Assembly: GCA_019752925.1 (NCBI GenBank) | Contig: JAIELP010000009.1 | Span: 1-64,000, forward strand | Source: a bacterium | GTDB lineage: Bacteria > Bdellovibrionota > Bdellovibrionia > Bdellovibrionales > Bdellovibrionaceae | Direction: 5' to 3' | DNA length: 64,000 bases | Part shown: one piece after another, positions 13,280 through 32,865 of the stretch | Position numbering within the stretch: position 1 is the stretch's first letter | How the letters are laid out: every line of letters starts with the position of its first letter | Notes under the pieces: model-generated | What the model saw: only the letters and a program-made list of their open reading frames with translations | Told to the model about the DNA's origin: nothing | The model's database searches: none | Position numbers and translations under genes: made by a program

Positions 13280-14535
13280 ATTGTAAAAATATCATTTTAT
13301 GTTTTCCCTACAAAGGCGTTGGTGGCGTTTCTTTATTATTTTTAAGATTATCTAACCATCTACAGCAGATCACCCGTAAGAACATAATTTTAATTGATTA
13401 CAAAGATGGCTACATGTCTCGCCATAATCAAAATAAAAATGTAAGCATTTTGGAGTACTCGGATGATGCTAAAACCGAAATTCCCCCGGATTCTTTGGTG
13501 CTCTTACAAAGCATGACCCCATGGTCGATTTTTCCAAACATAAACTTTCGTGCTGACACAAAATTATTTTTTTGGAACTGTCATCCGTTCAACCTAGTAC
13601 CACTTCTTCCCGGATTAAGAAATTGGATTGCTCAGTATCCAAAGCTAGTATGGCTCAGTCATAAGACACTTTTAATTTCTTACAATCTAACTTTAAAGAA
13701 ATTCTATAAACTACTGGTCAACCAACAGTCTATAGCTTTTATGGACGCTGATAATTTAAAAATGACAGAATTTATTTTGGGCCAACATAAACCTCATGCC
13801 GAATTCTTGCCTATTCCGGTTGAAGTTCCGCAAATTAATTCTTTCTCGTCCAGATCTAAGACTTCACAAAAAAAAATCACTTGTGGTTGGGTTGGTCGCG
13901 TAGCTGATTTTAAACATACTATACTTAAGCGCACCATTATCGAACTAAAAAAGTATGCAGGCACTCATAAACAGCCTATTCATTTTATTCTAGTTGGCGA
14001 TGGTGACTACATAGACCAGATAAAACCTGAGCTGGTTAGCACAGACTACTTTAGCTACGAACACATCAAAGAGGTTTCACCACAAGAACTGGACCAGTTT
14101 ATTCTCAAAAATATCGATTTACTATTTAGCATGGGCACATCTGCACTGGAGTCTGCTAAACTGGGAATACCTAGTGTTTTATTGGACTTCTCTTACGGAC
14201 CCGTACCTGAAACTTACGGCTTTAAATTTATTTTTGAAAGCCAGCAGTATTCGTTAGGCCGAGTTATTACTTCCGAGCTATGCGATCAAAAAAACTCAAT
14301 AGATCGTATTATACGTAAAACATTGGCCAACCCAGCCGAAATTTCAGATAAGTGCTACCAGTACTGCCTAAGCAACCACAGCATAGAAAGTACAACAAAT
14401 AACTTATTAAATAGGCTTAAATTCAGCAATCTGACTTACGGTCAACTGACTAAGACTGGTATTGTAAACAAAAGCTTTATTTACAAATTTTTTAAAGCAC
14501 TTAAAACTATTTTATTACAAAGAAGGCCTGCCTGA
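13267..14535 (+). CDS. glycosyltransferase, GT4-like (GT-B fold)
   Basis: The 422-residue protein is a GT-B-type glycosyltransferase. An acceptor-domain N terminus with a glycine loop (FPYKGVGGVSLLFLRLSNHL) is followed by a C-terminal donor domain with GWVGRVADFKHTIL, FILVGDGDYIDQI and the donor-site helix SMGTSALESAKLGIPSVL, where the Glu corresponds to the GT4 nucleotide-ribose contact. No membrane segments are seen apart from a basic, hydrophobic C-terminal tail that may touch the inner membrane. It overlaps the sulfotransferase by 13 bases and precedes a flippase, so it should add one sugar of the repeat unit. Donor and linkage are unknown. Confidence 0.8.
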   Translation: MEQLNCKNIILCFPYKGVGGVSLLFLRLSNHLQQITRKNIILIDYKDGYMSRHNQNKNVSILEYSDDAKTEIPPDSLVLLQSMTPWSIFPNINFRADTKLFFWNCHPFNLVPLLPGLRNWIAQYPKLVWLSHKTLLISYNLTLKKFYKLLVNQQSIAFMDADNLKMTEFILGQHKPHAEFLPIPVEVPQINSFSSRSKTSQKKITCGWVGRVADFKHTILKRTIIELKKYAGTHKQPIHFILVGDGDYIDQIKPELVSTDYFSYEHIKEVSPQELDQFILKNIDLLFSMGTSALESAKLGIPSVLLDFSYGPVPETYGFKFIFESQQYSLGRVITSELCDQKNSIDRIIRKTLANPAEISDKCYQYCLSNHSIESTTNNLLNRLKFSNLTYGQLTKTGIVNKSFIYKFFKALKTILLQRRPA

Positions 14536-16008: not shown

Positions 16009-16965
16009 ATGGCATTTAATAGCCCATTGGTGAGCGTTGTAATTAATTGTTTTAACGGAGAAGCCTATCTTAAAGAGGCTATTGATAGCGTTTATGCACA
16101 GACGTACAGCAATTGGGAAATCATTTTTTGGGATAACTGTTCAACCGACCGTAGCGCCGAAATCGCCAAATCCTACGGCAACAAAGTACGTTACTTTAAA
16201 GCCGAAAAAACAACTCCTTTAGGTGAGGCCAGAAATTTAGCCCTAAAACAATCTCAAGGCGATTTTATTGCGCTACTAGATTCTGATGATATCTGGCTGC
16301 CTGAAAAACTAACGACGCAAATTCAAAGCATAACTAAAAATGATGCTGCGGTTTGCTTCAGTGGTGTTATCGAAATTGACGAATCCGGCACTAAGCTTCG
16401 TGAAATTAATCCAATAAAAAAAAGCGGATACATGATTGAAGAGCTACTCTATCAATTCGACATTTATCTTTCGAGCATTATGTTTCGACGTGAGAGCTTA
16501 GTTAAAGAGTCCATTTCATTCGATACGCACCTAGTTTGCTCAGAAGAATATAATATACTGATGCGACTAGCAGCTAAATACAAGTTTGCTGTGGTCAGTG
16601 CAGCACTATCTAAATGGAGAGTTCACGGAACCTCGCTCACAACAAAAACGATTTCAAAATGGGCCTACGAACGTGAGTATACATTAAATCAAATTATCCG
16701 TGAAAACCCTGGTATAGATTTAAAATACCAGAAAGCCTTTGTTGAAGCCTATGCCCGCGCCGACTACTACAGAGCCCGCCTCTATTTTGAAACAGGAGAA
16801 ACTTCAAAAGCCCGACAATCTCTAGCAAAAGTTAAGTTTGTCCATCCACGCTATTTAATTCTATATACTGTTTCTTTTTTACCTAAATCTGTCTGGTTTT
16901 TTATTCATAAATCTAAATTGAAAAACAGCCTACTGCCTAAGCTGTTTAAATTTATATTTAGATAA
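16009..16965 (+). CDS. glycosyltransferase family 2
   Basis: The 318-residue GT-A enzyme starts with the GT2 nucleotide-binding strand PLVSVVINCFNGEAYLKEAIDS, has WEIIFWDNCSTDRS and the metal-binding DSDD in GDFIALLDSDDIWLPEK, and a downstream FRRESLVKES/CSEEYNILMRLA acceptor region with an E-D-like catalytic stretch. A short basic, hydrophobic C-terminal segment may associate with the membrane. It is the last gene of the plus-strand operon and stops 13 bases from the convergent polymerase gene, with no clear terminator hairpin between. Sugar specificity cannot be read from sequence. Confidence 0.88.
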   Translation: MAFNSPLVSVVINCFNGEAYLKEAIDSVYAQTYSNWEIIFWDNCSTDRSAEIAKSYGNKVRYFKAEKTTPLGEARNLALKQSQGDFIALLDSDDIWLPEKLTTQIQSITKNDAAVCFSGVIEIDESGTKLREINPIKKSGYMIEELLYQFDIYLSSIMFRRESLVKESISFDTHLVCSEEYNILMRLAAKYKFAVVSAALSKWRVHGTSLTTKTISKWAYEREYTLNQIIRENPGIDLKYQKAFVEAYARADYYRARLYFETGETSKARQSLAKVKFVHPRYLILYTVSFLPKSVWFFIHKSKLKNSLLPKLFKFIFR

Positions 16966-20556: not shown

Positions 20557-21213
20557 TTACTTCTTATCCCACCACTCAAATGGCTTTTTAAAAAATCCAG
20601 GCTTACAATCGAGCTCGTCAAAATTCTTAATTTTGCGGCCCGGATTACCCGCTATGACTGAATTCGGCGGAACATCATGTAACACCACAGCTCCACCATA
20701 TATCTGCGAATGATGGCCAATACGAACCCCGGGAGCTATAAATACATTGGCCCCTATCGATACAAATGATTCCACATGACTTTTAGGCACACAGTCTTTG
20801 TACTTCGGGCAAGGCGGATGAAGATCGTCTGAAAAAACCGTATTAGGCCCGATAAAAATATTATTTTCTAAAACGACTCTCTCTAAAAACACCTGAGAGT
20901 TGATGCGTATGTCATTACCCATAACACAGCCATTTTTAATAACAGCTTTGGGACCAATTCTTACACGATCCCCGATTATGTTGTCGGTAAAAACTGTAGA
21001 CTGATCGCTTATGTCGAAATTATCGCCGATTGTAACACCTGTGTAGAGCGTACATCTGGATCCGATAAATGCATTTTTACCGACTATTAGCTTAGTTTCC
21101 GGATGAAATCTGTCTTCAATACCAAGAATAGCCAAAGGCTCAATAATAGCGCCCTCGCCTATTTCTACGTTTTTATATTTGATAACGAGATTTTCATCGT
21201 ATTGAAATTTCAT
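20557..21213 (-). CDS. left-handed beta-helix (hexapeptide) acyltransferase, WlbB-like
   Basis: The 218-residue protein consists largely of hexapeptide repeats ([LIV]-G-x-x-x-x): VEIGEGAIIEPLAILG, IVGKNAFIGSRCTLYTG, VTIGDNFDISDQSTVF and onward, with a loop bearing SDDLHPPCPKYKDC and the family end PPNSVIAGNPGRKIKNF. Such trimeric enzymes use acetyl-CoA to acetylate amino sugars. Its start abuts the Gfo/Idh dehydrogenase stop (TAG-ATG). With that gene and the DegT aminotransferase upstream it completes a dehydrogenase-transaminase-acetyltransferase set as in WlbA-E-B pathways. O-acetylation is the alternative role. The unusual Cys-rich PPCPKYKDC loop might bind metal. Confidence 0.82.
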   Translation of the reverse strand: MKFQYDENLVIKYKNVEIGEGAIIEPLAILGIEDRFHPETKLIVGKNAFIGSRCTLYTGVTIGDNFDISDQSTVFTDNIIGDRVRIGPKAVIKNGCVMGNDIRINSQVFLERVVLENNIFIGPNTVFSDDLHPPCPKYKDCVPKSHVESFVSIGANVFIAPGVRIGHHSQIYGGAVVLHDVPPNSVIAGNPGRKIKNFDELDCKPGFFKKPFEWWDKK

Positions 21214-22302
21214 CTAGTTATCTTTCGTTCTGTATAAGTCAGCCAGTTTTTCGTCTGGACGACCTAAGAATTTAGATTGTTTAAATTCTTGTGGCGAAAC
21301 CGGAACCCCAGTTTCACTTGAGACGTAAAAGCTATGTAATAAGCCCAAAGATTTTTTGGCTTCTAAATAGTCTACAAAGTATTTTTTACGCTCTAGCATG
21401 TGGTCTGCAACGTCTTTATAAAAAGTTTCATGGCCATTACCATAAACGCATTTCGAAAAATCTTCTGAGTGAGCTGCTTGCTCTTTTGCATCTGGAGTAA
21501 AGATTTGTAACTCATTGACTGCTAAGCCACCAATTTGCATAAGACCTTTAGATCCAACTACTGAAATTGAAGCTTCAAAGTCATCTGGGCGAGCGGCTGT
21601 TGTAATTTCCAATGTACCTACTGCACCGTTAGCAAATTTTAAAGTCGATATGCAGGTGTCTTCAACTTCAATGTCGGCGCCAAAGGTTCTCATTTCTGTT
21701 TTAACCTCAGACACTTCACCACATAAATACCTTAGTAAGTCGATGTGATGAACGCCTTGATTTGTTATAGCTCCGCCATCTTGTGCAAAAGTACCTCTCC
21801 ACGGGGAAAGATCGTAATACCTTTGAGGCCGACACCATCTTACTCGAACAGAAACAATCTGAACCTTGCCTAATTCTTCATTATTAATTGCAGTTTTAAC
21901 TCTTTGCACAGCTTTATTATAACGGTTTTGGAAAACTGCAAATACATTTAGGCCTAACTTCTCAGCTGTTTGATAAACTTCATCAATATGTGAAAGTTTT
22001 AAAAATGTTGGCTTTTCAACAATGATATTTTTCTTATACTTAGTTAATACTTCTAAAGAATGTTCATAGTGCATACCTGACGGAGTTATAATAGCCACCA
22101 AATTAATTTCAGGATGTTTATCGAACATGGTTCTATAGCTTTTATATCCCGGGACTTCATACTCTTTTGAGTACGCATTGACTCTTTCTTCGTTTAGGTC
22201 ACAGACGGCTACTAAGTTATATTCCGGATTAGATTTAATATTTTTACAGTGATGGCCTGCAATTCGACCGCTGCCAATAACAGCTATATTTATTTTTTTC
22301 AT
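21214..22302 (-). CDS. Gfo/Idh/MocA-family sugar dehydrogenase, WlbA-like
   Basis: The 362-residue NAD(P)-dependent oxidoreductase has an N-terminal Rossmann fold (IAVIGSGRIAGHHCKNI), the family motif IVEKPTFLKLS, with the EKP lysine, near residue 96, and a C-terminal alpha/beta domain with RPQRYYDLSPWRGTFAQDGG and GVHHIDLLRYLCGE (the catalytic His region). It most resembles 3-oxidising enzymes on nucleotide sugars such as WlbA. It overlaps the aminotransferase stop by four bases (ATGA). No UDP-GlcNAc 6-dehydrogenase is seen in the window, so a UDP-GlcNAcA substrate would have to come from elsewhere; CDP- or CMP-linked substrates are possible. Confidence 0.85.
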   Translation of the reverse strand: MKKINIAVIGSGRIAGHHCKNIKSNPEYNLVAVCDLNEERVNAYSKEYEVPGYKSYRTMFDKHPEINLVAIITPSGMHYEHSLEVLTKYKKNIIVEKPTFLKLSHIDEVYQTAEKLGLNVFAVFQNRYNKAVQRVKTAINNEELGKVQIVSVRVRWCRPQRYYDLSPWRGTFAQDGGAITNQGVHHIDLLRYLCGEVSEVKTEMRTFGADIEVEDTCISTLKFANGAVGTLEITTAARPDDFEASISVVGSKGLMQIGGLAVNELQIFTPDAKEQAAHSEDFSKCVYGNGHETFYKDVADHMLERKKYFVDYLEAKKSLGLLHSFYVSSETGVPVSPQEFKQSKFLGRPDEKLADLYRTKDN

Positions 22303-23387
22303 TTAATTTGCCTTATTTTTTGCATTATCAATTCAAACTGAGATTTAGTACCTAAACTAAAGCGTGAAAAACCCTTTAAGCAGTTCGCATCGCCAAATTC
22401 GGTACGGTATAAAACGGTATCTTTGAGATTTTGTGCAATCTTTGACTCATCAGTACCAAAATCCACATGTAAAAAATTTCCATGAGATTCTGTTACTTGA
22501 TAACCCAATTTTCGCAATTCTGATTTAAAGTAGTCGCGACCTTCTTGAAGTCTGGCTACTGAAGCCAATATTTCAGTTTTATAATCTAAAAGTTGATAAA
22601 TAATTTCAGCAGATAAAGTTCCTACTTCGTACATGGCTCTGTTTTTATGAACAATTTGAATGAGTTCTTTGTTTGCAGCTAAGTAACCCACTCGAACACC
22701 GGCGGCTCCCCATGCTTTTGAAAAGGTCCGGCATACTAATAGCTGTGGAAATTCATTTACTTTATTAATCTGTGTTTTTGTAAAAAACGGATAGTAGGCT
22801 TCATCAATTAACAACAAACATTTTAATTCTAAAGTTGTTTTTAAAAGAATTTGCATCTGTTCATCCGTCAGCACTGTACCAGTTGGACTGTCTGGATTTG
22901 GTAAGCACACAAGCTTAGGCTGGCTTACTTTGATTTGCTCGATGAACTTATTAAAATCGAGAACCGGACCTTCGGGTGTATAAGTGTAAGCGACTTTAAT
23001 TTGCTCTGCTGCGAACATTTTACAATAAACATCGTACATTGCAAAAGTTGGATGGGTGTGAAGTACTTTATCACCTGGTGCTATAAACACTTCAAATGTA
23101 TTGCGAATTGCTCCATCAGAGCCTGAAGTCAGTATAAAATTATTAGGCTCCAGAGAGTCCAATGCAGCTAATTTTTTATAGATCTTTGCATTTTCAGGAT
23201 AGGTATTGACGGCAAAAGGCTTTATCTTTTTCAGAATACCGTTAATTTGTTCATTTAAAACAGGATCTAGATTTTCATTCTTATTTAGCCACAATACTTT
23301 CTCATCCCGCGAAGTATCAATTGTCCAATCAGGACGAGTGATAAGACCTTCTTTATATTGTCTTTTAGCTAATTGAGTAAAATCCAC
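22299..23387 (-). CDS. HisC-like class I/II PLP aminotransferase
   Basis: The 362-residue fold-type I aminotransferase resembles histidinol-phosphate aminotransferases: WLNKNENLDP near the N terminus, SGSDGAIRNTFEVFIAPGD, the CLPNPDSPTGTVLT loop, LLIDEAYYPF and the PLP lysine in RTFSKAWGAAGVRVG around residue 218. It is embedded in sugar genes with no other his gene near, so it probably transaminates a sugar- or cyclitol-derived oxo compound or an alpha-keto acid rather than serving histidine synthesis. It overlaps the Gfo/Idh gene by four bases and lies 15 bases after the KdsB-like gene. The exact substrate is unknown. Confidence 0.82.
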   Translation of the reverse strand: MDFTQLAKRQYKEGLITRPDWTIDTSRDEKVLWLNKNENLDPVLNEQINGILKKIKPFAVNTYPENAKIYKKLAALDSLEPNNFILTSGSDGAIRNTFEVFIAPGDKVLHTHPTFAMYDVYCKMFAAEQIKVAYTYTPEGPVLDFNKFIEQIKVSQPKLVCLPNPDSPTGTVLTDEQMQILLKTTLELKCLLLIDEAYYPFFTKTQINKVNEFPQLLVCRTFSKAWGAAGVRVGYLAANKELIQIVHKNRAMYEVGTLSAEIIYQLLDYKTEILASVARLQEGRDYFKSELRKLGYQVTESHGNFLHVDFGTDESKIAQNLKDTVLYRTEFGDANCLKGFSRFSLGTKSQFELIMQKIRQIK

Positions 23388-23402
23388 GATAGCCTGTCTT
23401 TC

Positions 23403-24170
23403 TTAATTGTAAGATTTAAATATCGGGTCGTGCACCATGGCGCCTTCAACTTTCTGTACATCATGAGGACTATCTACAGAATAGGAAGGTAAATAACGGT
23501 ATGGAGCCACTCTCTGCTTGAATCCGTAGTCAAAAATGCGGTTTGAATCACATGATTCTACTTTTTCCAGAGGAGATTCAGCTAAAGAAGTAAATTTCTT
23601 TAAAAAATGCCAACGGAATGCAAATATTCCGTAAATTCTTTTAGCACCGGCTTCAGGAGTTAGTTTAGTTGTATAAGGAATCGGCGAACGAGATGTATAT
23701 AACACATCACCCTTCATATTATGGATAATTTTAACGGTGTCTTTATTTCTGAATTCAGCATCATCAACAATATCCATACCTAAAACCGTACAGTTAACTT
23801 CGGGGTCGTTAAGGAGCGGAGCAATTGAAGCCTGGATCATATCCGGAAGTAACATAGGCTCGTCACCTTGAACACAAACGACGATGTCATTATCTGCAAT
23901 ATCTGGAACTAGTTTGGGTGCGGCTTCTGCAACTCGGTCTAAACAACGTGTGTGCTGATCTGAAGTCATTAAAACATCCCAACCTTGGGTCGCACCAAAG
24001 TCGGCAATTTCTTTATCACAGGTTGCTAAACCTAGCTTGGTCCAGCCATTAAACATTAAAGCGCGACGGTAAACATGCTCAATCATTGGTTTACCTAAAA
24101 TTTTAAATAAAGGTTTTCCCGGAAATCGGCTTGAAGCCATTCTTGCTGGAACAATACCTATAACTTTCAT
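23403..24170 (-). CDS. KdsB-like CMP-sugar cytidylyltransferase
   Basis: The 255-residue protein belongs to the KdsB/SpsF/NeuA nucleotidyltransferase group that transfers CMP from CTP to an acidic sugar. It has the N-terminal nucleotide loop IVPARMASSRFPGKPLFKI, VCVQGDEPML in the middle, SRSPIPY, and GIFAFRWHFL followed by SPLEKVE. It differs from housekeeping KdsB: the usual SGTER segment reads TRCLDR, and the C-terminal region has CDSNRIFDYG. This suggests a non-Kdo substrate, such as a modified ulosonate or other acidic sugar. No KdsA- or NeuB-type synthase is in the window. It overlaps the DegT aminotransferase by four bases. Confidence 0.8.
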   Translation of the reverse strand: MKVIGIVPARMASSRFPGKPLFKILGKPMIEHVYRRALMFNGWTKLGLATCDKEIADFGATQGWDVLMTSDQHTRCLDRVAEAAPKLVPDIADNDIVVCVQGDEPMLLPDMIQASIAPLLNDPEVNCTVLGMDIVDDAEFRNKDTVKIIHNMKGDVLYTSRSPIPYTTKLTPEAGAKRIYGIFAFRWHFLKKFTSLAESPLEKVESCDSNRIFDYGFKQRVAPYRYLPSYSVDSPHDVQKVEGAMVHDPIFKSYN

Positions 24171-25306
24171 AAAACTCTCTCCTTAAAGTAAACTTCGAGT
24201 TTATTTTCTATATAACTGATATCTTCTGCCGTGATCCCTACATGAAACGGAAAAGTAACAAGCCTTTCACACAAATCTTCAACCTTAGGTAAGGCATAAT
24301 CTGTTTTAAAATACTCATGCAAATGGTTGGCATAGTAATGAAGACCCACCGATACGCCTTGCTCCTGAAGATAAGAAACAATACGGTCCCGCTTTTCAGA
24401 TACGATTTGACATACGAAAATATGTGGAACGATATCTTTGTTTTTTAATGTAACCGGTTTAATCTGCGGAAACTTTTCAAACATATTAAAATACATTTCA
24501 GCCAGTTGTTTTCTTTTTTCAGCAAACTGAGGAGCTTTTTTTAATTGCTCTCGGCCTATGGCGGCCATGATGTCGCTCATGTGGTAGCGATAACCCTGAT
24601 GTTTAACGGCAAAAACCCAAGAGCGGTTTCTTTCAAAACGCATTTGCGTATCGTTTTCAACGGAAAGTAGTCTGGCGTCTTTTATTCTTGCAGCTACTGC
24701 TTTATCGGCAGTTAATACACAACCGCCTTCACCTGAAGTAATATTTTTAATTCCATCAAAGCTAAAGCAAATTATATCGCCCGCCTCACCTATCCAATGC
24801 CCATCTCTTTTATTCCCGAAGGAATGAGCCGCATCTTCAACCACTCTAAGGCCATGCTTTTTTGCAAATTCATAGACTTGAGGGATATCAACTGAATTAC
24901 TAGAATAATGAACCGGCATAATGGCTTTAGTTTTTGCAGAGATTCTTTTTTCGGCATCGACTAAGTCAATAAATCCCGTTTGAGCATCAACATCACACGA
25001 AACAGGCTTTAAACCTGCCGCGCTGATCGCCTGATGGCTTGCCACATAAGTTAATGATGGAACTAAGACTTCGTCGCCGTCTTGAAAATCTAAACACTCT
25101 AAAGCCAAATGTAAGGCTGCCGTACCTGTGTTTACCAATATAACTTCAAGCTCGGTATTTAAATAGGCTTTAATCTCTTTTTCAAATTGCTGAACTTCAA
25201 CACCCATACCTAAAAAGTGTGAATCTAAAACGCGGCTAACAGCCTCTTTTTCGTGATGATCCACAGAACATTTTGAAAGACGTATTGTTCTTTTTTCACC
25301 ACTCAT
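24167..25306 (-). CDS. DegT/DnrJ/EryC1-family sugar aminotransferase
   Basis: The 379-residue PLP enzyme shows [39 protein letters not shown], the internal-aldimine lysine in FSFDGIKNITSGEGGCV around residue 185, and KHQGYRYHMSDIMAAIG. It should aminate a keto-sugar nucleotide. Retention of the Lys distinguishes it from RfbH/ColD dehydratases. Position between the CDP-sugar genes (rfbF, rfbG, cupin) and the KdsB-like gene suggests a CDP-4-keto-deoxy sugar or a CMP-sugar precursor as substrate. The ATG at 25306 is used; an in-frame GTG lies four codons upstream. Confidence 0.88.
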   Translation of the reverse strand: MSGEKRTIRLSKCSVDHHEKEAVSRVLDSHFLGMGVEVQQFEKEIKAYLNTELEVILVNTGTAALHLALECLDFQDGDEVLVPSLTYVASHQAISAAGLKPVSCDVDAQTGFIDLVDAEKRISAKTKAIMPVHYSSNSVDIPQVYEFAKKHGLRVVEDAAHSFGNKRDGHWIGEAGDIICFSFDGIKNITSGEGGCVLTADKAVAARIKDARLLSVENDTQMRFERNRSWVFAVKHQGYRYHMSDIMAAIGREQLKKAPQFAEKRKQLAEMYFNMFEKFPQIKPVTLKNKDIVPHIFVCQIVSEKRDRIVSYLQEQGVSVGLHYYANHLHEYFKTDYALPKVEDLCERLVTFPFHVGITAEDISYIENKLEVYFKERVL

Positions 25307-25712
25307 AGGGGATCTCACTTAAATCTTTATTAACACTTTCTTTTGGATCGTGTTCGATGTCGGCAATATTTAATATTAAGTTTTCAGATTTATCTAACCC
25401 TTGAAAGGCAACCCATAAACCCGGAGGCACCGTTAATCTCTTATACTGTTCACCAGAGTTTCTCGATAAACAAAACTCTTTAAACTGGTTTCCTGCCTTC
25501 GCTGTTTCATCATATACAACAAATCTAACTTCGCCGGAAATGGCCATTAAATTCAAAGTCATCTGAGTGTGTTTTTTCCAGCCTTTAACTTCTTTAAAAT
25601 TAACTTCAGAGAAATAGGCTTCACCGAAGTTTTTAAAAGAAGCCTCGCTTTTTTTAAGAGCATGAAATACTCGACCCTTTGGGGTTTCGATTATTTTCAG
25701 ATCACTAAGCAT
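25296..25712 (-). CDS. RmlC-like cupin sugar epimerase
   Basis: The 138-residue single-domain cupin resembles dTDP-4-dehydrorhamnose 3,5-epimerases, in the short WbmI/AscE-like branch: FSEVNFKEVKGWKKHTQMTL with the catalytic-type His, RFVVYD, RLTVPPGLWVAFQGLD and LNIADIEHDPKES near the C terminus. It follows the CDP-glucose 4,6-dehydratase, so the likely substrate is CDP-4-keto-6-deoxyglucose, epimerised at C5 and/or C3. The ATG at 25712 is used; a GTG at 25724 that overlaps the rfbG stop (TAGTG) is equally possible. It overlaps the DegT gene by 11 bases. Confidence 0.8.
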   Translation of the reverse strand: MLSDLKIIETPKGRVFHALKKSEASFKNFGEAYFSEVNFKEVKGWKKHTQMTLNLMAISGEVRFVVYDETAKAGNQFKEFCLSRNSGEQYKRLTVPPGLWVAFQGLDKSENLILNIADIEHDPKESVNKDLSEIPYEW

Positions 25713-25723
25713 TACATCCGCCA

Positions 25724-26827
25724 CTACACTGTCCAGGTTAAATTTTGTTTTTTAGCAGAATCAAAGTAGAAATTAATTTGTTTATCGGTGTAGTCCATCA
25801 TGTTGGTTTCTTTTTTCTGGTAGTATGTTGCATACCATTCACCAACTAATTGAGCCGTTTCCTGATAATTTAAAGTGGCCTGCCATCCCAAATGAAATAA
25901 AGCTTTGTCACAATTTAATTTTAATAGACCAGCTTCTTTCAGGTTTAAGTTTTCAACTACAGAATAACTTCCTGAAGGATTTTTATGACCCCAGATGCGG
26001 GCTAAGTTTTCACAGATGTCTTTTACCGTTTTATTTTGTTCTGCGCGTGGACCAAAGTTGAAAGATTCGCCATGAAGTTTTTCACGGGCATATAACTCAG
26101 CACCTAAATGTAAATAGCCACACAGAGGCTCCATTACGTGTTGCCATGGGCGTGTTGAATTCGGACTGCGTAAAACCACTGTTTTATCTTCAGACCAAGA
26201 TCTCACCATATCGGCCACAATACGGTATTGAGCCCAGTCACCACCGCCAATAACATTACCCGCTCTGGCTGAACAAAGTTTTACCGGGTGATTATTAACA
26301 AAGAATGTTCTCACGTAAGAATGAAAAATATGTTCGGCTGCGGCCTTTGAAGCACTGTAAATGTCTTTACCGCCAAGAGCATCAGTTTCCTTATAACCCC
26401 ACTCCCATTCAACGTTTTCGTAGCACTTGTCAGAAGTAATAACTACACCGGTGCAAGCATGTTTAAATGAGCGCATAGCTTCAAGAACATGGGCTGTTCC
26501 CATAGCATTCACTGATAAAGTTCTTAATGGTTCTGATTGCGAAGTGGCTACAATGGGCTGAGCCGCCATATGAAAAATAAAATCTGGCTTTTCGTTCTGA
26601 AATATTATGTTAAGCTCGGGATAATTCAAAATATCTAAACGATAATCTTTACACAACTCATTAATTTTTAAAGCTTCAAACATAGAAGGTGTTGTTGGCA
26701 CACAGTCCGAAACACCAACTACATGAGCACCTAATTTTTTGAGTAATAAAACTAACCATGAGCCTTTAAAGCCAGTATGACCGGTTACTAAAACCTTTTT
26801 ACCTCTGTAAACGTCTTTAAATAGCAT
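25724..26827 (-). CDS. rfbG: CDP-glucose 4,6-dehydratase
   Basis: RfbG converts CDP-glucose to CDP-4-keto-6-deoxyglucose. The 367-residue SDR protein has VLVTGHTGFKGSWLVLLLK at the N terminus (the His-Thr-Gly-Phe-Lys-Gly loop is characteristic), HMAAQPIVATSQSEP, VITSDKCYEN with the Thr/Ser-Asp-Lys catalytic set, YSASKAAAEH and a downstream RPWQHVMEPL block. The ATG at 26827 is chosen because it forms a TAATG stop/start overlap with rfbF and matches the family N terminus; the frame is open 13 codons further. It acts with rfbF and the following cupin epimerase. Confidence 0.95.
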   Translation of the reverse strand: MLFKDVYRGKKVLVTGHTGFKGSWLVLLLKKLGAHVVGVSDCVPTTPSMFEALKINELCKDYRLDILNYPELNIIFQNEKPDFIFHMAAQPIVATSQSEPLRTLSVNAMGTAHVLEAMRSFKHACTGVVITSDKCYENVEWEWGYKETDALGGKDIYSASKAAAEHIFHSYVRTFFVNNHPVKLCSARAGNVIGGGDWAQYRIVADMVRSWSEDKTVVLRSPNSTRPWQHVMEPLCGYLHLGAELYAREKLHGESFNFGPRAEQNKTVKDICENLARIWGHKNPSGSYSVVENLNLKEAGLLKLNCDKALFHLGWQATLNYQETAQLVGEWYATYYQKKETNMMDYTDKQINFYFDSAKKQNLTWTV

Positions 26828-27600
26828 TACTTCCAAACTTTCCAAGGAGCTTCGCCAATACTCCACATTTTTTCAAGCGTATCGCGGTCGCGAATTGTAT
26901 CCATACAGTGCCAAAACCCGTTATGCTGATAAGCCATCAACTCACCGGCTTTAGCTAATTTTTCAAGTGGTTCTTTTTCTAAAATTGTAGATTCGTCTGT
27001 TAGGTAATTGAATATCTCTTTATTGAATATAAAGAATCCACCATTAATCCAACCTTCACCCACTTGTGGTTTTTCGTGGAAATCAGTAACTTTACCTTCT
27101 CTGATTTCTAAAGCACCAAAACGCGCCGGAGGTCTTACCGCAGTAACTGTGGCAATTTTTTTGTGAGATTTATGGAACTCAAGTAATTTAGAAATATTAA
27201 TATCGCAAAGACCATCACCGTAAGTCACCATGAATGTTTCTTCGTTTTTTAGCTGCTCTTTTAATTTAAAAATACGACCACCGGTCATTGAATCTTTTCC
27301 GGTGTCGATAAGGTGAACTTTCCAGTCTTCCTGCACTTCTGTTACGTTTTCGATTTTACGAGATTTCAGTTCAATGGTGAAATCTTTAGAGATATGACTG
27401 AAGTTTAAGAAATAATCTTTAATAAATTCGCCTTTATATCCAAGTGCCGGCATAAATTCATTAAATCCGTAATGAGCGTAAGATTTCATAATGTGCCAAA
27501 GAATCGGACGACCACCGATTTCTACCATAGGCTTAGGCTTAACCTGAGTCTCTTCAGCTAATCTTGTTCCAAGTCCACCGGCCAATATTACAACTTTCAT
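26827..27600 (-). CDS. rfbF: glucose-1-phosphate cytidylyltransferase
   Basis: RfbF makes CDP-glucose from glucose-1-phosphate and CTP, the first committed step to CDP-deoxy sugars. From the ATG at 27600 the product is 257 residues, the usual RfbF length, with the nucleotidyltransferase loop VILAGGLGTRLAEETQVKPK, PMVEIGGRPILWHIMKSYAH, TYGDGLCDINI and NGGFFIFNKEIF. The frame is open further upstream, but the extra leader does not match the family. Its stop overlaps the rfbG start by one base. Confidence 0.96.
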   Translation of the reverse strand: MKVVILAGGLGTRLAEETQVKPKPMVEIGGRPILWHIMKSYAHYGFNEFMPALGYKGEFIKDYFLNFSHISKDFTIELKSRKIENVTEVQEDWKVHLIDTGKDSMTGGRIFKLKEQLKNEETFMVTYGDGLCDINISKLLEFHKSHKKIATVTAVRPPARFGALEIREGKVTDFHEKPQVGEGWINGGFFIFNKEIFNYLTDESTILEKEPLEKLAKAGELMAYQHNGFWHCMDTIRDRDTLEKMWSIGEAPWKVWK

Positions 27601-27628
27601 AAATAAAACCTGTCTTTCAATATATCTA

Positions 27629-28282
27629 TTATTTATCCCAAGAAAATACAGTAACTGGTCCGCCATCGGCATCTGTTATGCGCAGCGGACTTATTAAAAC
27701 TTCTTTTGGCGAACTAAGTAAACCACGCAGGTCCATATCTTCAACAATTAATATTGGTTTATCTGCATTTTTTAAAAAGGCCTGATGAGCCTTTTTTCCC
27801 TCTTCACGGTTCACATAACTTGTTAAAGAAATCAGATCCATTCCTAAAAATTTAACATCGGGGCAATGTTTGCGCAAAAAATCGGCGCTGTTAGATGCAA
27901 TCCCTGGATTTGCACTCCAATAAACCTCTTGGTCTCTTTTATAGCAAAAGCCTGTTTTAACTAAAACAAGCTCAGAATTAGGGCTAATTTGAGATTTGTA
28001 CTTCTCTAAGTCGATCAACATATCCGTGTCAGGCACTTCCACTAGACTAATTTTTCGACAAAACCAGAAGTCTGGAGCGTAATCTGTTATTTTTAAGCCT
28101 TTTTGGTCAAAATGATAAGGACAGTCCAAATGAGTACCTATGTGATTGCTCACCTGAAAGGTCATTTGATTACAGCTTGCTCCGTGTTCAATGCACTTAT
28201 CGAGCACTCGGTTAAACCTGGGCCCATTTCCATAGGAAGGACTGTTTTCATCAAGGGAATAAGATAGAAATTTTATCACCAA
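27629..28282 (-). CDS. cyclase-family (kynurenine-formamidase-like) metal hydrolase
   Basis: The 217-residue protein has the metal-binding signature HxGTHxDxPxH (NHIGTHLDCPYHF, around residues 47-59) of the cyclase/arylformamidase family, followed by LVLVKTGF and a C-terminal GLLSSPKEVLISPLRI segment that is typical for the family. Members hydrolyse formamides, lactones or related bonds with a metal ion. No kynurenine-pathway gene is nearby. Its position at the head of the CDP-sugar operon, divergent from the GmhA/sugar-cyclase operon, suggests action on a formyl or lactone group of a sugar intermediate. The start is TTG 28282 or GTG 28279; neither has a clear ribosome binding site. Confidence 0.78.
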   Translation of the reverse strand: MVIKFLSYSLDENSPSYGNGPRFNRVLDKCIEHGASCNQMTFQVSNHIGTHLDCPYHFDQKGLKITDYAPDFWFCRKISLVEVPDTDMLIDLEKYKSQISPNSELVLVKTGFCYKRDQEVYWSANPGIASNSADFLRKHCPDVKFLGMDLISLTSYVNREEGKKAHQAFLKNADKPILIVEDMDLRGLLSSPKEVLISPLRITDADGGPVTVFSWDK

Positions 28283-28326
28283 AAGAAACTAGCAAAATCT
28301 TTGTTAAGCGTCGAGGTTACGCCTAT

Positions 28327-28355
28327 TTGACACACGCCGACATAAGGAGTAGTTT
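28327..28355 (+). promoter_or_regulatory. candidate promoter for the GmhA-like/sugar-cyclase operon
   Basis: A perfect -35 hexamer TTGACA (28327-28332) is followed after 17 bases by TAGTTT (28350-28355), a poor -10. It lies in the divergent gap upstream of the ATG at 28411. The -35 match and spacing support it; the weak -10 lowers confidence. Confidence 0.4.
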
Positions 28356-28410
28356 TTGTGGTCGAATCATTTTTCGGTTAGAAATGTTTAACACGCACGA
28401 GGATATCATT

Positions 28411-29022
28411 ATGCAGAACAAATTAGATGAAATTTTTCAATCTCACCGCCAACCCGCTGACTTTGCCAAACACTATGGGGCTTACCTATCTGAAGTCTTA
28501 TCAAAGCTTGATTACGAACAAGTTGGTAAAATGATTGAAACAGTAATTGATGCCCGCAACAGAGGCGCGCATATTTTCTTCATAGGTAATGGTGGAAGCG
28601 CGGCTACAGCTTCTCACTTTGCAAACGACATTTCTATCGGAACCCGCGTAACTGAAAAGCCATTCAAAGCTCTGGCTTTTACAGACAATGTAGCTATTTT
28701 AACAGCCGTTGGTAATGACGATGGATACGAATATGTTTTCACAAAACAATTGCAAAATTTTGCACAACCTAATGATGTGCTTGTTGCCATTTCAGCTTCA
28801 GGAAATTCACCAAATATTATTCATGCAGTTGATTATGCAAAGAAAAAGAATTTAAAAGTTATCGGTCTTACTGGCTTTGACGGCGGAAAACTCCGTGAAA
28901 TGTCAGATATCAAAATACATGTTCAAACTCAAAAAGGCGAATACGGTCCGGTTGAAGATGTTCATATGTTTATTGACCATTTATTGGGTTCATATTTAAA
29001 TCGCCATGTAAAGATGTCTTAA
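28411..29022 (+). CDS. GmhA-like SIS-domain sugar-phosphate isomerase (variant active site)
   Basis: The 203-residue SIS-domain protein resembles sedoheptulose-7-phosphate isomerase: FFIGNGGSAATASHFANDISIG, ALTF-like AFTDNVAILTAVGNDDGYEYVF, VAISASGNSPNI and the C-terminal VEDVHMFIDHLL. Compared with E. coli GmhA (His61, Glu65, Gln172, His180), the base after the first His is Asp instead of Glu (SHFAND), and the Gln-Glu before the C-terminal His reads Glu-Asp. This suggests altered chemistry or substrate. The ATG at 28411 has GAGGA seven bases upstream, so I use it instead of the upstream in-frame codons. It opens a four-gene operon with an SDR, a sugar cyclase and a 2-hydroxyacid dehydrogenase. 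Confidence 0.85.
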   Translation: MQNKLDEIFQSHRQPADFAKHYGAYLSEVLSKLDYEQVGKMIETVIDARNRGAHIFFIGNGGSAATASHFANDISIGTRVTEKPFKALAFTDNVAILTAVGNDDGYEYVFTKQLQNFAQPNDVLVAISASGNSPNIIHAVDYAKKKNLKVIGLTGFDGGKLREMSDIKIHVQTQKGEYGPVEDVHMFIDHLLGSYLNRHVKMS

Positions 29023-29741
29023 TGCCTTATAATTTCAAGAACAAAAAAATTCTTGTAACAGGCGGTTCTCGTGGGATTGGCGCTGCAATTGTAGACGCCT
29101 ATCTCAAATGTGGTGCTGAAGTCACTTATACAGGCCAAAAAAAAGCGCAAAATCCAAACCCTTCAGCAAAATTTCTACAGTTGGATTTTTCAAATGATGC
29201 ATCAATTGAATCTTTTTTATCCTCTGCAGAAATTGAAAAATTTGACGTATTAGTTAACAATGCAGGCATTAATAAAATTGATCATTTCCATGAAATTCAA
29301 TTAGAAGATTTTAAACAAATTCAAAAAGTTAATGTAGAAGGTCCATTTCGGCTAAGCCAAGCTGTGGTTAAGGGTATGCTGAAAAGAAATTTTGGCCGCA
29401 TCGTTAATGTAGGTTCAATATTTTCTACCATCAGTAAAGAAAAAAGAGCTTCCTACTCCACTTCTAAATTTGCATTAGTTGGAATGACTAAGGCCATGGC
29501 TATTGAATACGCTTCGAAAAATATTTTAGTAAATGTAATTTCACCGGGCTTTATTGATACAGAGTTAACCCGACAAATATTATCAGAAACTCAAATTGCT
29601 GAGCTAACTAGCCAAGTGCCTATTAAACGATTGGGCACTCCGGCCGAAGTAGCTGAGGCTGTCTTGTTTTTAACAAGCCCCGAAAATACTCTTATTACCG
29701 GCCAGAATATTGTAGCAGACGGAGGCTTTACCTGTGTCTAA
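29022..29741 (+). CDS. short-chain dehydrogenase/reductase (FabG-like)
   Basis: The 239-residue classical SDR has the cofactor loop ILVTGGSRGIGAAIVDAY, VLVNNAGINK, the catalytic Ser in NVGSIFSTIS and YSTSKFALVG with YxxxK near residue 145, then SPGFIDTELT. It uses NAD(P)(H) to oxidise or reduce an alcohol or ketone. The start overlaps the previous stop by one base (TAATG). In this operon, between a GmhA-like isomerase and a 3-dehydroquinate-synthase-like cyclase, it probably reduces or oxidises a sugar or cyclitol keto group and is unlikely to be a fatty-acid enzyme. Confidence 0.88.
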   Translation: MPYNFKNKKILVTGGSRGIGAAIVDAYLKCGAEVTYTGQKKAQNPNPSAKFLQLDFSNDASIESFLSSAEIEKFDVLVNNAGINKIDHFHEIQLEDFKQIQKVNVEGPFRLSQAVVKGMLKRNFGRIVNVGSIFSTISKEKRASYSTSKFALVGMTKAMAIEYASKNILVNVISPGFIDTELTRQILSETQIAELTSQVPIKRLGTPAEVAEAVLFLTSPENTLITGQNIVADGGFTCV

Positions 29742-30819
29742 GCTATCAAAAATTGAAATAAAATCATATAAAGGTATTTACGCAGTGGATTTTATTGATG
29801 ATGCTTTCAAAAAAATGGAAGAATTATCTAACTCAAATGTATGTTTTATAATCGATAAAAATGTTTCTGAGCTTTACAAAAAACAACTCTCTTCAATTAT
29901 TACAAAAAGTCCGCACTTTATTATCGAAGCTACTGAGGAAAATAAAGATCTGTCAAAGTTCACACAACTAGCAGTTGATTTAACAAAAATTGGCGTGAAA
30001 CGTAATGTGACCTTGGTTGCTGTTGGAGGTGGTATTATTCAGGATATCACCTGCTTTATGGCGGCTACCTTGTTTAGAGGGCTCAACTGGGTATTCTTTC
30101 CAACTACTCTTTTAGCACAGGCCGATTCCTGCATTGGCTCTAAAAGTTCAATAAATGTGGGCGGCGTAAAAAATCTGATGGGTACTTTTACTCCACCTAA
30201 TCATATTTACATAAGCGTACAGTTTTTAAAAACTCTAAATCCTGTTGAGGTCTATTCTGGCATAGGTGAAATGATAAAAGTTCATGGCATTGCAGGAATT
30301 GAAAAACTTAAAGAGTTTTCAGCCAATTACGATCTGATTTTAAAAGAAGACTCAAAGTTAGAGCACTTCTTAATGCAGTCTTTATTAATTAAAAAAGGCA
30401 TTATTGAAATTGATGAGTTTGATACTGGCCCTAGACTTGTTATGAATTACGGTCACACCTTCGGTCATGCTATCGAATCTGCTACAAATTACAAAATTCC
30501 TCATGGAATTGCTGTCACAATAGGTCAGTCAATGGCTTGCGAGTATAGTTTTTCGCAAAATTTAATCAGCAAAGAAATTAATGATTCGGCTCAAGGTCTT
30601 TTTGCTAAAAACTGGTTAGACTTCTGTAAATCAGATTTAAATTTTGATGTTTTCATGACAGCTATCCAAAAAGATAAAAAAAATGTCGGAAAAAATGTCA
30701 GCCTGATAATTCCAAAAAACAATGCGTTTAAAATAGAAAAACAAGAAGTTCCCGCAGATTCAAGCTTTGTACAGTTCTGCAATAGCTACTTTGTAAAAAA
30801 GGGATTTCATGTCATCTAA
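29734..30819 (+). CDS. 3-dehydroquinate synthase-like sugar-phosphate cyclase
   Basis: The 361-residue protein belongs to the sugar-phosphate cyclase superfamily (DHQS, DOIS, EEVS). Visible blocks are VAVGGGIIQDITCFMAATLF, RGLNWVFFPTTLLAQADS, GVKNLMGTF, SGIGEMIKVHGI (metal Glu and catalytic Lys) and NYGHTFGHAIES (metal His). The DHQS motif GGKTxxN is replaced by GSKSSIN and GxIGD by GIIQD, so it is unlikely to be the shikimate-pathway AroB. Neighbours (GmhA-like isomerase, SDR, hydroxyacid dehydrogenase, KdsB-like gene) suggest a heptulose or similar phosphate is cyclised to a carbasugar or cyclitol. The start is GTG 29734, with GGAGG nearby upstream, overlapping the SDR by eight bases. Confidence 0.85.
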   Translation: MSKLSKIEIKSYKGIYAVDFIDDAFKKMEELSNSNVCFIIDKNVSELYKKQLSSIITKSPHFIIEATEENKDLSKFTQLAVDLTKIGVKRNVTLVAVGGGIIQDITCFMAATLFRGLNWVFFPTTLLAQADSCIGSKSSINVGGVKNLMGTFTPPNHIYISVQFLKTLNPVEVYSGIGEMIKVHGIAGIEKLKEFSANYDLILKEDSKLEHFLMQSLLIKKGIIEIDEFDTGPRLVMNYGHTFGHAIESATNYKIPHGIAVTIGQSMACEYSFSQNLISKEINDSAQGLFAKNWLDFCKSDLNFDVFMTAIQKDKKNVGKNVSLIIPKNNAFKIEKQEVPADSSFVQFCNSYFVKKGFHVI

Positions 30820-31774
30820 TTCAGGATTAATTGCTGTTGCATCAAGATCGTTTTCACAGGATGAATTCCTCAGAAACAAACTTTCTGAAAAATATCCTTC
30901 GGTTAAATTTAATGAAACAGGCAAATCCTTACAAGGAGATGAACTCGTTTCGTTTTTAAAAGGTGCTGAAAAAGCTATCGTGGCTCTTGAAAAAATTAAT
31001 GATGATACTCTTAAGTATCTACCTGACTTAAAAGTTATAAGTAAATATGGCGTTGGTTTAGATAATATTTCTTTCGAGGATATGTTTAAACATAATATCC
31101 AGTTGGCTTGGCAAGGAGGCGTTAACCGCCGCTCGGTTGCTGAACTTGCTATGCATTTTATATTAGGTTGCGTACGTGGGAGCTTTCACTCTCATCATGA
31201 AGTACAAAAAGGCACATGGACTCAGTTTAAGGGCCAAAACCTCTCAGGCAAAACTATCGGTATTTTGGGGCTTGGTTACGTTGGGCAAGAGCTGGTTCCA
31301 TTTTTAAAACCTTATGGTGTTAAAATTCTAGCTTATGACCTTTTCCCTAAAGATGACTACTGCATTGCAAATGGTATTCAACAAACAACTCTCGAGAACG
31401 TTTTAAAAGAGTCTGATGTTGTAACTATTCACTTACCTTTAACTTCTAAAACAAAAGCTCTACTTAACCGCGAAAGCTTGATGTTAATGAAAAAAGGAAG
31501 CTTTTTAGTTAATACAGCTCGCGGCGGTATGGTTGATGAATCTGCATTATATGATTTACTTTCTACACGTCATATTCAGTCAGCAGCATTTGATGTTTTT
31601 GAAAAAGAGCCACCCGTAGATCAAAAGCTTTTTAGCTTAGATAATTTCTTTTCGACGGCTCATATTGGTGGTTCTTCAATTCAATCTATTAGATTAATGG
31701 GACAAGCAGCTATCGAAGGACTTAGCAATCCAAAGCCTGCTAAGCCTGAAAATTTCTTCAACTACCCGCTTTAA
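30809..31774 (+). CDS. D-isomer-specific 2-hydroxyacid dehydrogenase (SerA-like)
   Basis: The 321-residue NAD-dependent dehydrogenase has the Rossmann signature TIGILGLGYVGQELVPFL, SDVVTIHLPLTSKTKALLN, NTARGGMVDESAL with the substrate Arg, the FDVFEKEPP glutamate and STAHIGGSS with the catalytic His. There is no C-terminal ACT domain, so it is not a full-length regulated SerA. It overlaps the cyclase gene by 11 bases, has AAGGGA before its ATG and ends exactly where the convergent Gfo/Idh gene ends. It may oxidise or reduce a 2-hydroxy acid side chain in the pathway of this operon. Confidence 0.88.
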   Translation: MSSNSGLIAVASRSFSQDEFLRNKLSEKYPSVKFNETGKSLQGDELVSFLKGAEKAIVALEKINDDTLKYLPDLKVISKYGVGLDNISFEDMFKHNIQLAWQGGVNRRSVAELAMHFILGCVRGSFHSHHEVQKGTWTQFKGQNLSGKTIGILGLGYVGQELVPFLKPYGVKILAYDLFPKDDYCIANGIQQTTLENVLKESDVVTIHLPLTSKTKALLNRESLMLMKKGSFLVNTARGGMVDESALYDLLSTRHIQSAAFDVFEKEPPVDQKLFSLDNFFSTAHIGGSSIQSIRLMGQAAIEGLSNPKPAKPENFFNYPL

Positions 31775-32815
31775 CTAGATTTTATCTGTTAAATTGTATT
31801 TTTCTTTCCATACTTTATCTGAACAGTAAATGCGGTATACTAATTCCATCGTTTTGAAGGCCTCTTCTGAAGAACCTTGTTCTATTTTTTTGTTTTTAAC
31901 AATACAGTCTGCAAAATAGTTTACTTCATCTCTCCAAGAGTTATCCTCATTGTATCGTGTCGTGACCTCTAAAGGATCGCCACTACCGTTAGCTTCATGA
32001 TTAGCATAGGCAACTGTAATCGTTTCAGCACCATAACTTTTTGATCCTGATAAAATTCCTGAAAGGATAATGCTTCCTTTTTCTAAAGAAATTTCTAAAT
32101 TAAATCTATGACGCCACTGCGTAGCTGTCGAATGTAAGAAGGCCACAATACCCGACTTAGTTTTCATTAATGCATAGGCATTATCTTCCACATCGTGATT
32201 CCAGAAACCATTATCTACAAAACTATGAATTTGTTCAAAATCGCCCACAAACATTCTGATCAAATCCACCATATGGATACCTTGATCAAGTAAAATGCCG
32301 CCGCCAGCAATAGCTCTTTTAGTTCTCCAATCAGATTCAAAAGAAATAATTTTGGACTTACCATAAACACCACGTAAGTTGATGATGCGGCCTAATTCTT
32401 TAGTTTTAACAATCTCAAAAGCTTTTTTAATTGAGTCGTGATAACGATGATTGAAGCCATACATCAGTTTGAGATCGGGATGTATTTTTTCTACCTGAAT
32501 TACATTATGTATATCTTTTAAGTCTTTTCCCGGAGGTTTTTCGCAAAATACGTGAAGACCTTTATTTAAACCAGCTATAGTCACTTCAGGAGCAATATCA
32601 TTTGTTAAGCAAACAAATAAAATATCCAGATCTTCTTTTAAAAGATCTTTGTAGTTATCGTATACCTTAGCTCCGTGATCTTCAGTTTTGCCAGTACCTT
32701 TAAATTTCATATCACAAACAGCTACGGTTTGAAGTGATGGATGCAAATCTATAAATTTACGACGACGAATACCCACTATACCATAACCTGCTATTCCCAC
32801 TTTTAATTTTTTCAT
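31775..32815 (-). CDS. Gfo/Idh/MocA-family oxidoreductase
   Basis: The 346-residue protein has an N-terminal Rossmann fold (KVGIAGYGIVGIRRRKFI), the EKP motif in HVFCEKPPGKDLKD near residue 95, YGFNHRYHDSIKKAFEIV and GGGILLDQGIHMVDLIRMF with the usual Asp/His. It is a second, clearly different paralogue of the 21214 gene. It probably oxidises or reduces a sugar derivative at the end of the minus-strand operon. The ATG at 32815 has AAAGAG eight bases upstream; a TTG two codons earlier is possible. Its stop directly abuts that of the convergent hydroxyacid dehydrogenase, so transcription from the two strands meets here. Confidence 0.85.
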   Translation of the reverse strand: MKKLKVGIAGYGIVGIRRRKFIDLHPSLQTVAVCDMKFKGTGKTEDHGAKVYDNYKDLLKEDLDILFVCLTNDIAPEVTIAGLNKGLHVFCEKPPGKDLKDIHNVIQVEKIHPDLKLMYGFNHRYHDSIKKAFEIVKTKELGRIINLRGVYGKSKIISFESDWRTKRAIAGGGILLDQGIHMVDLIRMFVGDFEQIHSFVDNGFWNHDVEDNAYALMKTKSGIVAFLHSTATQWRHRFNLEISLEKGSIILSGILSGSKSYGAETITVAYANHEANGSGDPLEVTTRYNEDNSWRDEVNYFADCIVKNKKIEQGSSEEAFKTMELVYRIYCSDKVWKEKYNLTDKI

Positions 32816-32865
32816 AACCAATACTCTTTCGCATTTAATTTAAATCGGCTGAATGCTACTGCAAC

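Follow-up and report, generated by a model that had tools for sequence, protein, structure and literature searches.

Pathways built on the sugar-phosphate cyclases EEVS, EVS, DDGS and DOIS combine a cyclase with reduction, amination and nucleotide activation, and the Kdo8N pathway (Kdo, 3-deoxy-D-manno-oct-2-ulosonic acid) uses a pair of a dehydrogenase and an aminotransferase. A further lineage of sugar-phosphate cyclases, EboD of the Ebo operon, is annotated as dehydroquinate synthase (DHQS) and belongs to an uncharacterised conserved operon, according to PubMed Central (PMC) article PMC5133447. We analysed a stretch of 64,000 nucleotides (hereafter, the window; contig JAIELP010000009.1 of assembly GCA_019752925.1) from a member of the Bdellovibrionaceae, in which a cyclase gene of the AroB-related family TIGR04425 (29734-30819) sits among two divergent gene runs. 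The gene content of this locus supports an undescribed cyclitol-type pathway. With somewhat less than even confidence, we propose that the genes at 20557-32821, apart from a cytidine diphosphate (CDP)-sugar cassette among them, would make a carbocyclic sugar acid (a carba-2-ulosonic acid) activated with cytidine monophosphate (CMP) and destined for a surface glycan.

The general logic of the locus is that of the EEVS, EVS, DDGS and DOIS pathways; however, its cyclase has other residues (in a comparison that did not sample EVS), a 2-hydroxyacid dehydrogenase is present, activation is of the CMP rather than the nucleoside diphosphate type, and the setting is that of a surface glycan. With AroB the cyclase shares its fold, its metal ligands and the residues that we take to bind 3-deoxy-D-arabino-heptulosonate 7-phosphate (DAHP), yet it differs in clade, in a Q and C signature, in gene neighbours and in its score below the aroB cut-off; from the Ebo operon it differs in clade, residues and partner genes. 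CMP activation by a KdsB- or PseF/NeuA-like enzyme and the dehydrogenase/aminotransferase pair recall the Kdo, Kdo8N and nonulosonic acid pathways, whereas the cyclase sets the locus apart from them, as does the lack of any KdsA relative in the window and the 23 related loci described below, one of which (L033) has a NeuB. The original prediction, drawn up from the window alone, did not recognise the combination as a described pathway, and no description of it was found in the open-licence PMC literature examined, nor any assay of an enzyme from the set, nor any mention of TIGR04425 or its family name. A link to bradyrhizose was rejected: its eleven-gene cluster has a dTDP-glucose dehydratase, and the words 'dehydroquinate' and 'cyclase' are absent from the text of PMC4743980.

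The TIGR04425 cyclase and its active site

The cyclase scores 438.5 bits against TIGR04425 (curated cut-off 400) and 265.1 bits against the aroB model TIGR01357, below the cut-off of 305. In NCBIfam, TIGR04425 is a hypothetical equivalog called 'AroB-related putative sugar phosphate phospholyase (cyclizing)', a name that holds no substrate, product or pathway. The motif DSCIGSKSSIN occupies the place of AroB's DSSVGGKTGxN or similar, as expected from the earlier claim of a non-AroB motif. In a 63-row tree, where several of the reference sequences form long branches, the window cyclase falls in a clade of 35 rows (support 100/99) that contains none of the 21 AroB-type rows and neither DOIS, the two sedoheptulose-7-phosphate cyclases, the DDGS-like row nor EboD; Q in GGGxxQD and C in DSC are the signature of this clade. 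The tree left out the truncated sequence FAM_L048 and did not include AroB_L146, and neither the tree nor the residue comparison held an EVS sequence. The genome has a second gene of the DHQ-synthase type outside the window, and this one groups with the AroB-type rows. The window cyclase neither joins true AroB in the tree nor is the only candidate aroB of its genome. Because of its TIGR04425 membership, the second gene and the separate clade, we conclude on sequence grounds that the cyclase is not AroB.

Another, better aroB match is present in nine of ten further carrier genomes (over the cut-off in eight), the exception being a genome of 0.9 Mb. TIGR04425 matches over the cut-off are sparse, occurring in 6 of 368 genomes of the window's own phylum (the window's genome included) and in 5 of 398 genomes of a phylum sample centred on the L035 genome (that genome included). 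The titles of carrier records, which are mostly metagenome-assembled, name Bacteriovoracia, SAR86, Sulfuritalea, Undibacterium, Opitutaceae, Syntrophaceae, Cytophagaceae, Desulfosudis and Pelagibacteraceae. The cyclase also matches 115 plasmid and 15 phage records, all at less than 60% identity; among the matches listed, identity is 25-35% and the annotation is AroB/DHQS family, DOIS, sedoheptulose cyclase, hypothetical protein or nothing.

The conserved active-site residues and fold of the AroB type are found in the cyclase. K220, R234, N238 and H245 are present in 36 of 36 clade rows (L040 and L149 being the same gene) and K315 in 35, the remaining row having a gap in a truncated sequence; all five are likewise present in 21 of 21 AroB-type rows. 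R234, which we take to be the contact for the DAHP carboxylate, is gone in five of five references (the two sedoheptulose-7-phosphate cyclases, the DDGS-like row, DOIS and EboD) and is retained in an aminoDHQS-like row. The marks of the sedoheptulose and DDGS references (M220; K, S or D234; D or A238; P245; V or S315) occur in none of the 36 clade rows, position 315 being a gap in one, and the pattern of the single DOIS reference (G234, E238, N315) is not matched either. Since the DHQS-type residues, R234 included, coincide with a 2-hydroxyacid dehydrogenase in the gene set, they point to a 2-keto acid phosphate as the probable substrate. The analogy with EEVS and a heptulose 7-phosphate substrate, drawn in the original prediction, finds no support at R234, which is kept throughout the clade and lost in the sedoheptulose, DDGS, DOIS and EboD references. 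This difference suggests a quick rule for separating carboxylate from non-carboxylate substrates across the cyclase superfamily.

Gene layout and co-conservation

The starts of the two divergent runs lie between 28282 and 28411. On the plus strand are GmhA-like, short-chain dehydrogenase/reductase (SDR), cyclase and SerA-like genes, every gene overlapping its successor; the minus-strand run begins with a PF04199 hydrolase gene, continues with the four genes of the CDP-sugar cassette and ends with the KdsB-like, HisC-like, Gfo/Idh B and hexapeptide acyltransferase genes, with gaps of at most 15 bases. Gfo/Idh A lies on the opposite strand and abuts the end of the plus run. No sigma-70-like or terminator-like sites were found in 28150-28500. 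The genes assigned to the proposed pathway are:

28411..29022, plus strand: GmhA-like SIS isomerase with changed metal/catalytic residues (SIS_2 PF13580, 77.5 bits; TIGR00441, 132 bits, below the cut-off of 209.45)
29022..29741, plus strand: SDR reductase (adh_short_C2, 188.5 bits; 8-base overlap with the cyclase gene)
29734..30819, plus strand: DHQS-like sugar-phosphate cyclase of TIGR04425 (438.5 bits)
30809..31774, plus strand: SerA/PGDH-like D-2-hydroxyacid dehydrogenase (2-Hacid_dh_C, 177.8 bits)
31775..32821, minus strand: Gfo/Idh dehydrogenase A (best solved relatives inositol dehydrogenase, 1,5-anhydro-D-fructose reductase and glucose-fructose oxidoreductase)
27629..28282, minus strand: PF04199 metal-dependent hydrolase, proposed lactonase (60.2 bits; kynurenine formamidase relatives; HxGTHxDxPxHF intact)
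23403..24170, minus strand: KdsB-like cytidylyltransferase, proposed CMP-activating enzyme (equivalog TIGR00466, 148.8 bits, under the cut-off of 155.2; subfamily model NF003952, 216.2 bits, over the cut-off of 193)
22299..23387, minus strand: HisC-like pyridoxal-phosphate aminotransferase, proposed amination step (TIGR01141, 224.2 bits, cut-off 276.55)
21214..22302, minus strand: Gfo/Idh dehydrogenase B, proposed aminotransferase partner, alcohol to ketone (in 6 of 23 loci)
20557..21213, minus strand: hexapeptide acyltransferase (DapD- and NeuD-like matches below cut-offs; no gap to the Gfo/Idh B gene)

All seven genes named by the original prediction are present at the positions and in the families that it gave. 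Its span passed over the PF04199 hydrolase (27629-28282) and the four-gene CDP-sugar cassette (24167-27672), and ended just short of Gfo/Idh A (31775-32821), which, with 15 of 23 loci, proved to be one of the most constant members of the set.

GmhA acts on sedoheptulose 7-phosphate in the known heptose pathway. In the GmhA-like protein of the window, for which ATG 28411 is a likelier start than the TTG at 28327 of the listed open reading frame, the E of HFxxEL is changed to D and the Q of IQEIH to E, as in all 14 rows compared (the window and 13 family rows), in keeping with the predicted change of catalytic residues. The window's other GmhA (47389-47994) has the canonical E and Q, and no SIS_2 match beyond these two copies was found in the genome. 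As the canonical copy also scores under the TIGR00441 cut-off (181.9 bits), we give the residues more weight than the score. In the SerA-like protein, the R, E and H residues that are presumably catalytic are present (ARGG, xEP, HIGG).

To measure co-conservation, 23 family loci were set against 58 control loci. The family set consists of 13 contig loci (L033-L044, L048) and 10 loci from whole genomes (L113, L115-L119, L155-L158); the family and control contig loci were drawn from at least 80 loci, and the controls (L055-L112) were taken as AroB type. L045-L047 and L049-L054 are in neither table, L114 was dropped because it shares its contig with L033, and L120, which is more distantly related and has no module match within 20 kb, was left out. 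The controls, 3.8-21 kb in length, are for the most part not surface-sugar islands and so give no measure of the background to be expected in such islands; one of them, L058, falls in the cyclase clade (among L055, L058 and L059, the controls checked for this).

At a stringent threshold (> 60% of the reference covered, at least 36% identity), no control matched any of eight partner genes. The family counts were 22 for SDR, 15 for Gfo/Idh A, 13 for GmhA-like, 10 for PGDH-like (13 at any identity), 9 for KdsB-like (10 at any identity), 6 for Gfo/Idh B, 5 for HisC-like and 4 for PF04199; weaker matches occurred in the controls for SDR (5 of 58), Gfo/Idh A (1) and Gfo/Idh B (1). The most constant partner of the cyclase is the SDR, which adjoins it in 22 of 23 loci, or in all 23 if a partial gene at a contig edge in L034 is counted. 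Gfo/Idh A, at up to 68% identity, accompanies the GmhA-like gene in 13 of 13 loci, and a 2-hydroxyacid dehydrogenase does so in 12 of 13. Such a dehydrogenase occurs in 14 of the 15 loci with Gfo/Idh A (13 of PGDH type, one YdiJ-like) versus none of the 8 without it (Fisher 2e-5, uncorrected for kinship), and a CMP enzyme in 12 of 15 versus 1 of 8. The gene set is thus co-conserved, other phyla included.

Four steps (2-hydroxyacid oxidation, lactone opening, CMP transfer and amination) look like cases in which unlike enzymes have been swapped for one likely chemistry. The SerA-like enzyme gives way in L158 to an FAD-linked YdiJ-like protein (508.9 bits, below the 1350 cut-off). The PF04199 hydrolase, found in the window, L033, L039, L113 and L115, has PF01182-family proteins in its stead in L040 and L035, that of L040 scoring 188.6 bits against the 6-phosphogluconolactonase model TIGR01198 (cut-off 124). 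PseF/NeuA-like CMP enzymes (PF02348) replace the KdsB type in L034 and L157, with relatives in L040 (28%) and L041 (53%), and a DegT-type aminotransferase beside Gfo/Idh B replaces the HisC-like one in L042. Where Gfo/Idh B is present (46-60% identity), it is always together with a KdsB 53-64% identical to that of the window.

L157:3505-12424 is a single same-strand run of GmhA, Gfo/Idh A, SDR, cyclase, SerA-like, SDR and PseF/NeuA-like CMP enzyme genes; it lies a few kilobases from flagellin-like and FleQ-like genes, which suggests use on flagellin. L040 has an MptE-like gene on both sides (one by Pfam, the other by similarity cluster), and the MptE family is linked to flagellin glycosylation.

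A possible route and its rivals

The four apparent swaps lead us to read a sugar-acid route from the gene set, and the chain given here is the simplest that uses all of them. It draws on gene presence, family, intact motifs, co-conservation, clade and DHQS-type residues, from which we infer all substrates, products and the step order. The altered GmhA would produce an aldo-heptose 7-phosphate, which Gfo/Idh A (31775) would oxidise at C1 to a lactone. The PF04199 hydrolase, or a 6-phosphogluconolactonase-family protein in two other loci, would open the lactone to heptonate 7-phosphate, and the SerA-like enzyme would oxidise the C2 hydroxyl to give 2-keto-heptonate 7-phosphate, in effect 3-hydroxy-DAHP. 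By DHQS chemistry (oxidation, phosphate loss, ring closure), the TIGR04425 cyclase would then form a hydroxylated dehydroquinate, whose ring ketone the SDR would reduce. Gfo/Idh B and the HisC-like aminotransferase may convert one hydroxyl to an amine, which the hexapeptide enzyme perhaps acylates, and the KdsB-like protein would place CMP on the hydroxyl beside the carboxylate, a position as in Kdo. No relative of the genome's KdsA, or of the KdsA-family protein taken as its DAHP synthase, was found in the window or the 23 loci by a search blind to AroG-type and class II enzymes; NeuB is present in L033. A wider proposal, which we put forward as possible but doubtful, is that of a scattered and probably horizontally moving pathway to CMP-carbocyclic ulosonic acids. 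In it, a DHQS relative would cyclise a 2-keto-heptonate 7-phosphate obtained from heptose phosphate by sugar oxidation and not from phosphoenolpyruvate (PEP), and the products would replace Kdo- or sialic-type acids in surface polysaccharides, perhaps on flagellin in at least one lineage.

Several observations weigh against the proposed route. Going by its NF003952 match, the KdsB-like protein would be called an ordinary Kdo cytidylyltransferase, and an HpaI-family aldolase near KdsB in L113, L037 and L039 fits a plain 3-deoxy-ulosonate for that half of the gene set. The PF04199 hydrolase occurs in just 4 of 23 loci. In the wider clade, matches to the GmhA-like, PGDH-like and Gfo/Idh A proteins are all absent from the stretch examined in L045-L047, L049, L050, L052 and L053. 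They are likewise absent in L051 and L054, the other two loci kept out of both tables. In L116 and L156, deep in the window's own sub-clade, the module is absent from the stretch examined. Over 21 kb of L037 there is no GmhA-like gene, and PGDH matches are weak in L037 (26%), L038 (29%) and L040 (27%). In the cyclase itself, K182 is H in 7 of 36 clade rows, so that not every DHQS residue is retained, and the carboxylate role of K220 and R234 is one that we assume from the A. nidulans literature. In L117, L118, L119, L043 and L044, the cyclase and SDR are coupled to a thiamine enzyme that resembles acetolactate synthase, and L117-L119 also have a weakly HpcH-like protein (PF03328, 31-32 bits where tested); a FGGY-type kinase follows the cyclase in L044 (by Pfam) and L043 (by eye). 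Because of these thiamine-enzyme loci and the module-less clade members, cyclase substrates may differ among members of the clade. Lastly, an oxocarbenium ion could not form when CMP departs from a carbocyclic tertiary alcohol, which leaves the transfer step unexplained.

The KdsB-like protein is the sole full-length KdsB match in the assembly (the second reaches 34 bits), in a genome with KdsA and WaaA-type genes. An ordinary kdsB was not found in the assembly and is present over the cut-off in 19 of 19 relatives. We rejected the idea that the KdsB-like protein is the genome's only Kdo activator. In three relatives inspected, kdsB adjoins a gene taken by eye for pyrG, and a search of the assembly for the pyrG-like protein (run without a positive control) gave no match; since this neighbour is also unmatched, an assembly gap at the kdsB/pyrG-like region is the simpler and likely cause.

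Three other readings have to be weighed. Two pathways may travel together, an arrangement that we consider unlikely: the KdsB-like, HisC-like and Gfo/Idh B proteins would make a CMP-amino-ulosonate related to amino-Kdo, and the GmhA-like, Gfo/Idh A, SerA-like, cyclase and SDR proteins a separate cyclitol decoration. The low counts of HisC-like (5 of 23) and Gfo/Idh B (6 of 23) favour such a split, as do the HpaI-family aldolases, which lie near more distant KdsB proteins (37-43% to that of the window), and L033, L115 and L158, which have the cyclase module but, over the stretch examined, no CMP enzyme. However, the L115 and L158 stretches end shortly past the module, two kinds of CMP enzyme track the module at the frequencies given above, and the CMP enzyme of L157 is part of the cyclase's own gene run, where nothing matches the aldolases or the L033 NeuB.

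The cyclase could also be a second DHQ synthase that acts on ordinary DAHP and, with the SDR, gives a quinate-like decoration, the remaining genes serving other sugars. We rate this as improbable: the AroB-like fold and residues are shared, but the separate 100/99 clade with its Q and C changes, the score under the aroB cut-off and the linkage of the cyclase to GmhA-like, Gfo/Idh A and 2-hydroxyacid dehydrogenase genes argue against it. Least probable, in our judgement, is the course first predicted, in which an EEVS-type cyclase would turn sedoheptulose 7-phosphate into a valiolone-like cyclitol to be aminated and activated. GmhA is known to handle this substrate, and cyclase, SDR, aminotransferase and nucleotidyltransferase fit carbasugar logic. 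Moreover, an EVS clade, with the same substrate, would pass for DHQS by tree position, as PMC5133447 cautions. Yet the residues of the sedoheptulose and DDGS references occur in 0 of 36 clade rows (EVS not sampled), and neither the 2-hydroxyacid dehydrogenase nor the CMP enzyme, which normally acts on keto acids, would have a role.

The surrounding island and what the pathway would mean

The host genome spans 2.74 Mb in 14 contigs and is 94.4% complete. At about 12-54 kb, the window resembles a surface-polysaccharide island, with genes of glycosyltransferase, nucleotide-sugar, acyltransferase and repeat-unit-polymerase types. An argument for foreign origin from composition was dropped, GC being flat at 35-39% over the whole window. 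Within the minus-strand run, the CDP-sugar cassette (Pfam matches PF05523, PF16363 and PF00483) comprises:

24167-25318, minus strand: DegT (by NCBIfam)
25296-25724, minus strand: FdtA-like cupin (by Pfam)
25724-26866, minus strand: CDP-glucose 4,6-dehydratase-like protein (by Pfam)
26827-27672, minus strand: glucose-1-phosphate cytidylyltransferase-like protein (by Pfam)

This cassette is probably a separate pathway of the 3-amino-sugar type, going by the putative enzyme names and the 3-amino product that they imply. Of the CMP/CDP activation originally proposed, the CMP step is the part linked to the cyclase module; the CDP genes look like this separate cassette. The four cassette genes also accompany the cyclase in L113, L037 and L156. 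The hexapeptide acyltransferase may N-acylate an amino group, possibly on the cyclase-module unit or on the CDP-sugar.

A sulfotransferase-like protein, a 422-aa protein to which neither Pfam nor NCBIfam gave a match, and a glycosyltransferase-like protein (12218-14535 and 16009-16965) have relatives in L113, L037 and L156, and because all three do, they may handle the same unit. A methyltransferase whose N-terminal part carries what by eye is a zinc-ribbon-like motif lies near the cyclase in L113, L033, L037 and L156, and in L035 and L038 (clusters c15 and c33). L035, L036, L038 and L039 have a large protein in common, alongside KdsB, which in L036 matches TIGR04326 'surface carbohydrate biosynthesis'; the TIGR04326-type protein is a candidate transferase for the CMP-activated unit.

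If the proposed pathway is correct, a type of substrate would be assigned to the orphan cyclase family TIGR04425, and a non-PEP route into dehydroquinate-like carbocycles would be added. It would also predict carbocyclic acidic residues in surface glycans, which could be missed by routine sugar analysis.

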